From contig NZ_JAATOW010000002.1 in the NCBI RefSeq assembly GCF_011806405.1, positions 62,001 to 126,000 on the forward strand: a stretch of DNA of 64,000 nt, in the 5' to 3' direction. Below, piece by piece: positions 837 to 63,406 of the stretch. A program made the position numbers and the translations under genes. Every line of letters starts with the position of its first letter. Positions within the stretch are counted from its first letter, which is position 1. The notes below the pieces were generated by a model, which was not told where the DNA came from, searched no databases, and saw only the letters and a program-made list of their open reading frames with translations. The stretch comes from Pseudooceanicola sp. HF7. GTDB taxonomy: Bacteria > Pseudomonadota > Alphaproteobacteria > Rhodobacterales > Rhodobacteraceae.

Positions 837-979
837 TGTCTGTACCGCGTCGGTATTACGTCTGTATCATGTCGGTATTACGTCGGTGCGCGGCGCACGC
901 TGCGTTAGGCCCGTCGTAAGCGCTGGCCGGGGGCGCAGCCCCCGACGCTTCGAGGGGGCTCGATGCCCGCTCGGAGCGT
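837..979 (+). repeat. Composite iteron-hairpin element, copy 1
   Basis: Five contiguous 11-bp units occupy 837-891 (TGTCTGTACCG, CGTCGGTATTA, CGTCTGTATCA, TGTCGGTATTA, CGTCGGTGCGC). They are followed by a spacer containing GTTAGGCC and TAAGCGCTGG, a hairpin CGGGGGC/GCCCCCG at 928-944, and a second hairpin at 945-979 whose apex reads GGGCTCGATGCCC. The same architecture recurs at 32921 and 63244. This copy sits between two minus-strand genes, downstream of the racemase-type gene and upstream of nspC, so the hairpins may also terminate transcription. Nothing else of note is visible in 715-997. Confidence 0.85.
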
Positions 980-32920: not shown

Positions 32921-33096
32921 CGTCGGTATCACGTCTGTTTTGCGTCGGTATCACGTCGGTATTACGTCGGTGCGCAGCGAACGGGGGGTTAGGCCTGTCT
33001 TAAGCGCTGGAGGGGGGCTTTGCCCCCCCCACGAAACAGGGGGGCTCGATGCCCCCCCTGTTTCGTTCCCCCCAGAGTTTTTTGGCAAGAAGAAGA
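32921..33096 (+). repeat. Composite iteron-hairpin element, copy 2
   Basis: Five 11-bp units at 32921-32975 (CGTCGGTATCA, CGTCTGTTTTG, CGTCGGTATCA, CGTCGGTATTA, CGTCGGTGCGC) lead into GTTAGGCC and TTAAGCGCTGG. Then come a GGGGGGC/GCCCCCC hairpin (33012-33028) and a 15-bp-arm hairpin at 33031-33066 with apex GGGCTCGATGCCC. A TCCCCCC-AGAGTTTTTTGGC tail follows that resembles the tails at 18361 and 44624. It starts 14 bp after fdsD. Confidence 0.85.
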
Positions 33097-62962: not shown

Positions 62963-63243
62963 CCGCCCCCGTTTCGCTGTTTCCAGGTTTCCGGATTGGC
63001 CCATGGAATGGGCGGCAATTCGGATAGGGTCTTGAGCGGAATGGGAAGAGTCGGGGCAGGGAGGTGCCATTCCAACCAGACGACTCACCCGAAATCCTGC
63101 GGGGGGCGGTGCGGGCGCTTTCTGGCACCGTACGGTCCCTGGTAAACAGGATCTGAAGCCCGCGTTCCGCGGGCGGTCAGCGGGATCGGCGCGGCAAGGG
63201 GGCGAATCTGGCCGTTAACGCTGTGAATCCGGGGGAAAATCCA

Positions 63244-63406
63244 CGTCTGTATTACGTCGGTATCGCGTCGGTATTACGTCGGTGCCGGTGTCGGTATTTC
63301 GGCTGGTTAAGCGCGTGCACGCTGGGGCAGGGGAATCCTAGCATGTTCCGGCGCCGGGTGGCTTGGCCACCCTGCCGCGCCGGGGGCTCGATGCCCCGGG
63401 CGGGGC
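63244..63406 (+). repeat. Composite iteron-hairpin element, copy 3
   Basis: Units CGTCTGTATTA, CGTCGGTATCG, CGTCGGTATTA and CGTCGGTGCCG at 63244-63287, then TGTCGGTATTT at 63289-63299 after a one-base insertion. GGTTAAGCGCG follows, then hairpin GGGTGGC-ttg-GCCACCC (63356-63372) and a long hairpin at 63374-63406 with apex GGGGCTCGATGCCCC. It lies upstream of the IMPACT-domain gene. Confidence 0.82.

Follow-up and report, generated by a model that had tools for sequence, protein, structure and literature searches.

REP and BIME sequences are short palindromes, present in many intergenic copies and preferentially where genes converge, and are associated with a RAYT transposase. MatP of E. coli is a ribbon-helix-helix (RHH) protein that has more than 20 specific sites, matS, dispersed on the chromosome; the accessible part of the report places them in the Ter region (PMC12756933). 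CdbA of Myxococcus, a nucleoid-associated RHH protein, has more than 550 chromosomal sites, with little effect on transcription reported in the portion of the article available (PMC10313047). ParR, as far as the accessible text of two further reports goes, is an RHH protein acting on tandem direct repeats, parC, upstream of its own operon, and the repeats bound by the ParR of R1 are 11 bp long (PMC9426499, PMC5016525).

The current study concerns arrays of tandem 11-bp repeats in Pseudooceanicola sp. HF7 and a candidate RHH protein for binding them, a member, like BrnA of the BrnTA systems, of the BrnA family (PF14384). The arrays resemble MatP/matS in pairing an RHH protein with dispersed specific chromosomal sites; however, matS sites lie in Ter and MatP has extra domains, according to the part of the report consulted, whereas these arrays are tandem, cover the whole chromosome and are linked to a BrnA-family protein. 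CdbA likewise combines an RHH protein with many chromosomal sites, but is described as having moderate specificity and binding c-di-GMP, and regular tandem arrays are not mentioned in the portion of that article available. In layout the arrays resemble ParR/parC, in that tandem 11-bp repeats precede the RHH gene in 29 of 31 orthologs; there, in the text accessible to us, a single centromere per plasmid works with a ParM motor, in contrast to approximately 90 chromosomal arrays here. In contrast to BrnTA, no BrnT-like ORF was found beside the gene of the candidate, which is accompanied by dispersed arrays. REP sequences and BIMEs share with the arrays the many short intergenic copies and the bias to convergent ends, but the arrays consist of direct 11-bp repeats, not of palindromic hairpin units, and a candidate protein is linked to them. 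Because each of MatP/matS, ParMRC, BrnTA and REP fails in a defining feature that was tested, the arrays are not assigned to any of them. No description of such arrays, or of regular chromosome-wide sites in roseobacters, was found in the open-access literature.

The window (the whole stretch of 64,000 nucleotides that was analysed) contains three arrays, all on the forward strand. Array 1 (837-891) consists of five contiguous 11-bp units in a form termed class I. It is followed by a spacer (904-926) with GTTAGGCC (904-911) and TAAGCGCTGG (917-926), by a first hairpin (929-943) and by a second hairpin (944-980) that carries GGGCTCGATGCCC at its apex (956-968). The five 11-mers, spacer motifs and two hairpins of the preliminary description are all borne out between 837 and 980, and the RNA fold of 904-985 is unusually stable (z -3.7; none of 200 shuffles equally stable). 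A 20-mer across two units, allowing up to three mismatches, has 10 matches in the window against 0.00 expected. Array 2 (32921-32975), also of five class I units, precedes a spacer and two hairpins (32988-33066). Array 3 (63244-63287) has four units in a second form, class II, with a GTTAAC flank (63214-63219) 30 bp before it, an offset unit, TGTCGGTATTT, after it, a downstream GTTAA flank, GGTTAAG (63305-63311), and a hairpin with the GGGCTCGATGCCC apex (63378-63402), the region of which folds slightly better than shuffles (z -2.0; 6 of 200). The order of parts had been said to recur at 32921 and 63244. There are arrays at both positions, but the full composite is repeated only at 32921; copy 3 comprises an array and the last hairpin with a different spacer, lacking GTTAGGC and TAAGCGCTGG and having GTTAA flanks in their place.

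Amongst the 88 arrays found in the genome, GGGCTCGATGCCC lies within 170 bp downstream of 11, TAAGCGCTG within 170 bp downstream of 7, and GTTAGGC within 60 bp of 8. The spacer of copy 1 is accordingly an optional module, present near 7-8 of 88 arrays, and both of its hairpins are optional, the second occurring near 11 of 88. As the hairpin and spacer motifs accompany only a minority, the recurring unit is the array and not the composite. The proposed composite of iterons and hairpins stands as regards the 11-bp iterons, which are real and form the core; that iterons plus conserved hairpins make up a single class of element is not supported. All 12 GGGCTCGATGCCC occurrences in the 450 kb examined, which were chosen around arrays, fall within 250 bp of an array, and the motif was not found in 800 kb of P. 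atlanticus, where there are 21 arrays. The GGGCTCGATGCCC hairpin is an optional feature that has been added locally.

A further repeated module, in which CCTCCGGCGGGAGTTTT precedes GGCAAGAAGAAG or a close variant of it, lies downstream of several arrays in the same genome (L008, L010, L022, L031, L032, L039 and L045), and a 17-mer of it is absent from the 800 kb of P. atlanticus. Separately, a conserved intergenic stretch of the HF7 genome between yhhQ-like and arfB-like genes (L017:997-1172) is kept in four species (L017, L069, L140 and L173); it resembles the Caulobacter sRNA CC2171 at a score below the Rfam cut-off (37.2 bits against 75, E 1.6e-6).

A profile built from 48 arrays on sequence alone finds 88 in the HF7 genome at 42.5 bits or more, the next match being a 21.4-bit piece of a longer array, and a separate weight matrix also gives 88 in the stretches fetched around them. 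A two-unit pattern has 133 matches on each strand and its reversed form has none. In 800 contiguous kb of P. atlanticus there are 21 arrays, all scoring at least 38.8, with none between 22 and 38.8 and none in the reversed-sequence control, and similar arrays are present in many roseobacter genera. The 11-mers might have been absent elsewhere; instead, 88 arrays are present in this genome, and more in its relatives. An array mostly has four or five units, about one helical turn apart. In class I the array ends in CGTCGGTGCGCWSCGCRCGG, and class II is flanked by GTTAA, which lies within 60 bp on both sides of 22 of the 88 arrays, on one side of 21 and on neither side of 45. Counts over 104-105 arrays of other genera give GTTAAC 32 times within 90 bp upstream (peak -30; 0.3 expected) and 29 times downstream (peak +18; 0.3 expected), and GAATC 31 times upstream (peak -39; 2.3 expected). 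From these counts, the flanks are strongly enriched yet limited to a minority of arrays. The GTTAAC flanks, near -30 and +18, are palindromic; a CtrA-like reading of them was rejected, as only single half-sites are present. The repeated block is one of many short, evenly spaced chromosome tags (for spacing see below) found in many marine roseobacters.

The claim that the element matches no known class holds in so far as Rfam names no family for it: the window gives no match at the gathering score, and a lax threshold yields only chance-level matches. The RNA fold of the array is unremarkable (z -0.57), and pairs changed on both sides number none in the class I array and one in class II. With neither an Rfam family nor a two-sided pair change in class I, the idea that the array acts as RNA was abandoned. 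A scan of the element for sigma-70 promoters and intrinsic terminators found none.

The candidate gene was found by clustering of array neighbours, which brought out one gene at three loci in different species; at each of them an array on the same strand lies 83-86 bp upstream. The HF7 gene lies outside the window (G000:C10:1733-2188, minus strand) and encodes 151 aa. Its product matches PF14384 (BrnA) at 38.9 bits (cut-off 26.1), as do all 24 aligned orthologs at E<=0.01. No BrnT-like ORF was found beside the orthologs (33 loci, approximately 1.5 kb each side, phmmer E 1e-3) with a single BrnT query, which could miss a very diverged BrnT and which matched only beside the canonical BrnA at L290. 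The predicted structure has a strand (residues 55-63) and two helices (64-72 and 77-117), as expected for RHH. Foldseek with the predicted model gave no clear RHH match, and a second structure comparison gave ParD2 (Z 4.1, 2.2 A over 43 residues). A sequence search of the PDB returned no relevant match and PADLOC no match, while the PHROGs hit was confined to an antitoxin family, phrog_4692.

The autocorrelation of the upstream sequence, a motif-free measure over lags 7-15, is best at lag 11 in 29 of the 31 orthologs that could be parsed (of 33), against 3 of 61 control starts from which those overlapping arrays had been left out; amongst the 31, the own-genome L282 and also L294 (which is the gene of L108) came to notice because of their arrays. 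A smaller ortholog set gives lag 11 in 25 of 26. The promoter array lies approximately 60-120 bp upstream in most orthologs (67 bp in P. aestuariivivens), and two, L319 and L320, lack it. The neighbours of the gene differ between species, no ParM-like motor was recognized by eye beside it, and in P. spongiae and P. aestuariivivens it is on a chromosome contig. The preliminary description placed the 11-bp repeats on one helical face for cooperative binding of a protein, possibly a nucleoid protein, and this reading fits, since the promoter of the candidate RHH binder has an array of this kind too. The arrays are most likely bound by one small antitoxin-related RHH protein, and binding together with autoregulation by this protein is, on the sequence evidence, very probable.

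Some more distant homologs also have upstream repeats. In three weaker BrnA-like homologs from other genera, L285, L287 and L288, the best upstream lag is also 11 with other motifs (TCATAACTCTT, GTGCACAGCCC and CATATG), and the 50-aa fragment L292 has a best lag of 11 with no visible repeats. G034 has three CATATG arrays, one of them near its weak homolog. For the weak homologs L286, L290 and L291 the best lag is not 11.

Gene and arrays occur together across the family. In a set of 60 relatives, orthologs above 140 bits are found only in G000 (HF7), G014 and G015, the three genomes with at least 80 arrays; in eight others the homologs are weak (at most 58 bits), and array counts outside the three range from 0 to 23. 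Nearly every one of 394 family genomes represents a different genus; 31 of the 394 carry the gene (E<=1e-20), and 10 or more matches to the TCGG array are found in 22 of these 31 against 7 of the 363 gene-negative genomes (Fisher 4e-23). This test and the co-variation test below ignore shared ancestry, so that independence is overstated amongst related genomes. The seven gene-negative genomes with this many matches are G127, G173, G179, G180, G223, G227 and G285. In the smaller set, G016 has 23 arrays with no gene detectable at E 0.01, and G018 has 12-14 weak arrays and no gene; the absence may reflect decay after loss or, in G016, an assembly gap.

Nine gene-positive genomes have fewer than 10 TCGG matches, and five of these (G114, G152, G163, G231 and G387) show, to a varying degree, arrays of another motif. 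Where the promoter array reads TATGG, G114 has 132 dispersed TATGG matches (12 in the reversed control), G152 has 28 (18 in the control, thus only modestly above it) and G163 only 6. G387, with a CATATG promoter, has this motif at 26 places in 24 loci, against none in the control. The other four show no dispersed set: G113 and G372 have 3 and 1 TCGG matches and none for CATATG, and G141 and G377 have none for TCGG, TATGG or CATATG. G189, with the promoter motif CGTCGGC, has 98 TCGG matches (control 0), nearly all of them TCGGC amongst the matches listed. Where strand residue 7 is Tyr (K.KVTLYLD), CGGTA promoter arrays are found in 14 of 16 orthologs, against 1 of 15 with other residues (p=7e-6). 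The comparison of sequences indicates that the array motif changes together with the predicted DNA-reading beta-strand of the protein. The control with the pattern reversed, GGCT at 11-bp intervals, itself matches 43, 21 and 36 times in G257, G395 and G423 and 0-9 times in other genomes; these matches are possibly further motif variants of the array.

Nearly all arrays are intergenic. With coding calls from a home-made gene caller, 1 of 88 HF7 arrays lies inside a called ORF, and other counts are 0/49, 0/21 and 5/169; in the 800 kb of P. atlanticus all 21 are intergenic, although 89.8% was called coding. The 84 HF7 arrays with both neighbours called comprise 44 in tandem, 28 in convergent and 12 in divergent regions, and a pool of 152 arrays, 49 of them from HF7, includes 44 convergent and 15 divergent. 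Against 399 intergenic regions of P. atlanticus as background, divergent regions are depleted (12/84, p=0.001, and 15/152 pooled, p=4e-9, versus 119/399) and convergent regions enriched (28/84 versus 67/399, p=2e-4). The arrays of P. atlanticus itself are 13 tandem, 4 divergent and 4 convergent. Array orientation relative to the neighbouring genes is kept across species and genera at gltD-like (five loci), arfB-like (four) and lpd-like (four) genes, these and the sec names having been assigned by eye, and the array is amongst the best conserved parts of the lpd spacer. Six HF7 junctions have orthologous, close neighbours in P. atlanticus C1, three with the array and three empty. On these comparisons, some array positions are old and others turn over by gain and loss. 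In species with no strong RHH ortholog, weak arrays are found a short distance before secE-, secG- and lpd-like genes (L083, L076, L072, L077 and L084).

The spacing of arrays along the chromosome is more regular than random intergenic placement. In P. atlanticus the gaps have a CV of 0.45 against 0.97 (p=1e-4; 21 arrays in 800 kb), and in HF7, with one contig entered by its known part, 0.63 against 0.93 (p=8e-4; mean 36 kb within contigs). HF7 has one gap below 8 kb against 9.2 expected, and with a span-based null p=0.013. Spacing is also regular in P. aestuariivivens (p=0.003; mean 147 kb; 26 of 27 matches), in P. spongiae (p=0.007; mean 35 kb; 124 of 141 matches) and in G114 with its TATGG motif (p=0.0017; mean 47 kb; 62 arrays amongst the matches listed). 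When the chromosomes of P. spongiae and P. aestuariivivens are divided into twelfths, each part contains arrays, and density is approximately one per 30-150 kb, depending on the species. Orientation followed no clear rule with respect to replichore (18/26, p=0.08).

The arrays are also chromosomal in their distribution. With the HF7 array and protein as queries, no match was found on 72,556 plasmids, and all 26 P. aestuariivivens arrays amongst the matches listed are on the chromosome. A phage origin was rejected: the protein is absent from viral contigs and the array is found in three stretches only, namely a full array in L367, where the neighbouring genes are ordinary metabolic ones, and two weaker arrays.

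We propose, with a probability of roughly 0.6, that the arrays are tandem sites of a toxin-less chromosomal BrnA-family RHH protein that is autoregulated and has working sites throughout the chromosome. An autoregulated RHH protein coating approximately 90 arrays is suggested by the design of ParR/parC together with the many-site precedents of MatP and CdbA. RHH dimers would load side by side on one DNA face of each array, and the promoter array would set the level of the protein by autoregulation. The approximately 90 further arrays, placed at intervals of a few tens of kb in this genus, would be the working sites, where DNA coated with the protein would form nodes bridging or anchoring the chromosome in the manner of MatP at matS; alternatively, the dispersed arrays could mark DNA as chromosome. 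Arrays would turn over by gain and loss, and their motif would shift with the predicted DNA-reading beta-strand. That protein and arrays organize the chromosome is a guess to which we give even odds.

The arrays could instead be operators of a regulon of approximately 90 genes under a global transcription regulator, of the RHH or the OmpR/PhoB type, the latter also binding 11-bp direct repeats. The array at the RHH gene's own promoter would suit this, as would the conservation of arrays a short way before lpd and, in species whose arrays are weak, before secG and secE (names by eye); some arrays lie within approximately 30 bp of the start codons of lpd, secG, secE and similar housekeeping genes, as regulator sites would. 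However, arrays are depleted in regions with two divergent promoters and enriched in convergent ones, they keep neither a constant orientation nor a constant distance to gene starts, their positions are gained and lost between species of the same genus, and a regulon does not predict regular spacing, which together make this explanation unlikely. The scarcity of arrays in divergent promoter regions also speaks against the multi-gene regulatory cassette envisaged earlier. Four observations favour a structural or marking role over a regulon: arrays are regularly spaced, they avoid divergent promoters, their positions turn over, and they were not matched on plasmids.

Turnover also allows that the arrays may be MITE-like in origin. 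A repeat that is selfish or has been copied passively, possibly with its origin in the RHH promoter and with its spacing due to target immunity or to selection against damage, would account for the three of six comparable P. atlanticus junctions that have no array, for the resemblance by eye of class I arrays to the downstream layout of the promoter, and for the hairpin module that travels with some arrays in HF7 (12 of 12 within 250 bp). Against this, no constant ends or target duplications were seen at arrays, for which a clean empty site was not available, some positions are kept with their orientation across genera, the motif follows the protein in several genomes, and only three viral-contig stretches and no plasmids carry the array; we consider such an origin quite improbable. 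Arrays might otherwise act as a titration buffer that sequesters RHH protein; the autoregulated level of the protein would then reflect the copy number of the chromosome or the state of replication. A promoter array with approximately 90 chromosomal copies and no plasmid match would fit, but titration needs a number of arrays and not their regular spacing, and has no known output gene, so that this explanation is very doubtful.

The proposed RHH protein and its arrays look like an undescribed way of marking or organizing a bacterial chromosome. RHH proteins with dispersed chromosomal sites are known, and there is a fair chance that these arrays and their protein are a new class. It is tentatively suggested that an antitoxin-derived RHH protein here reads self-renewing, evenly spaced chromosomal iteron arrays as a new kind of organizer. 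That the arrays define domains, or mark chromosome as distinct from plasmid, is conceivable at somewhat less than even odds. With similar reserve, the protein and its scattered sites might have changed motif together several times in one family, and the change could, equally tentatively, have come about by the apparent birth and death of arrays.

Roseobacters are common in the sea, and, as far as the open-access literature goes, approximately 80-140 regular protein sites per chromosome have apparently gone undescribed in them. If the arrays do organize the chromosome, the natural variation in spacing, site number and protein specificity would make the function of regular nucleoid anchors testable. 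The findings also suggest that a relative of an antitoxin, lacking the toxin, can acquire a function across the genome, and that the DNA motif of an entire network of protein and sites can change more than once.
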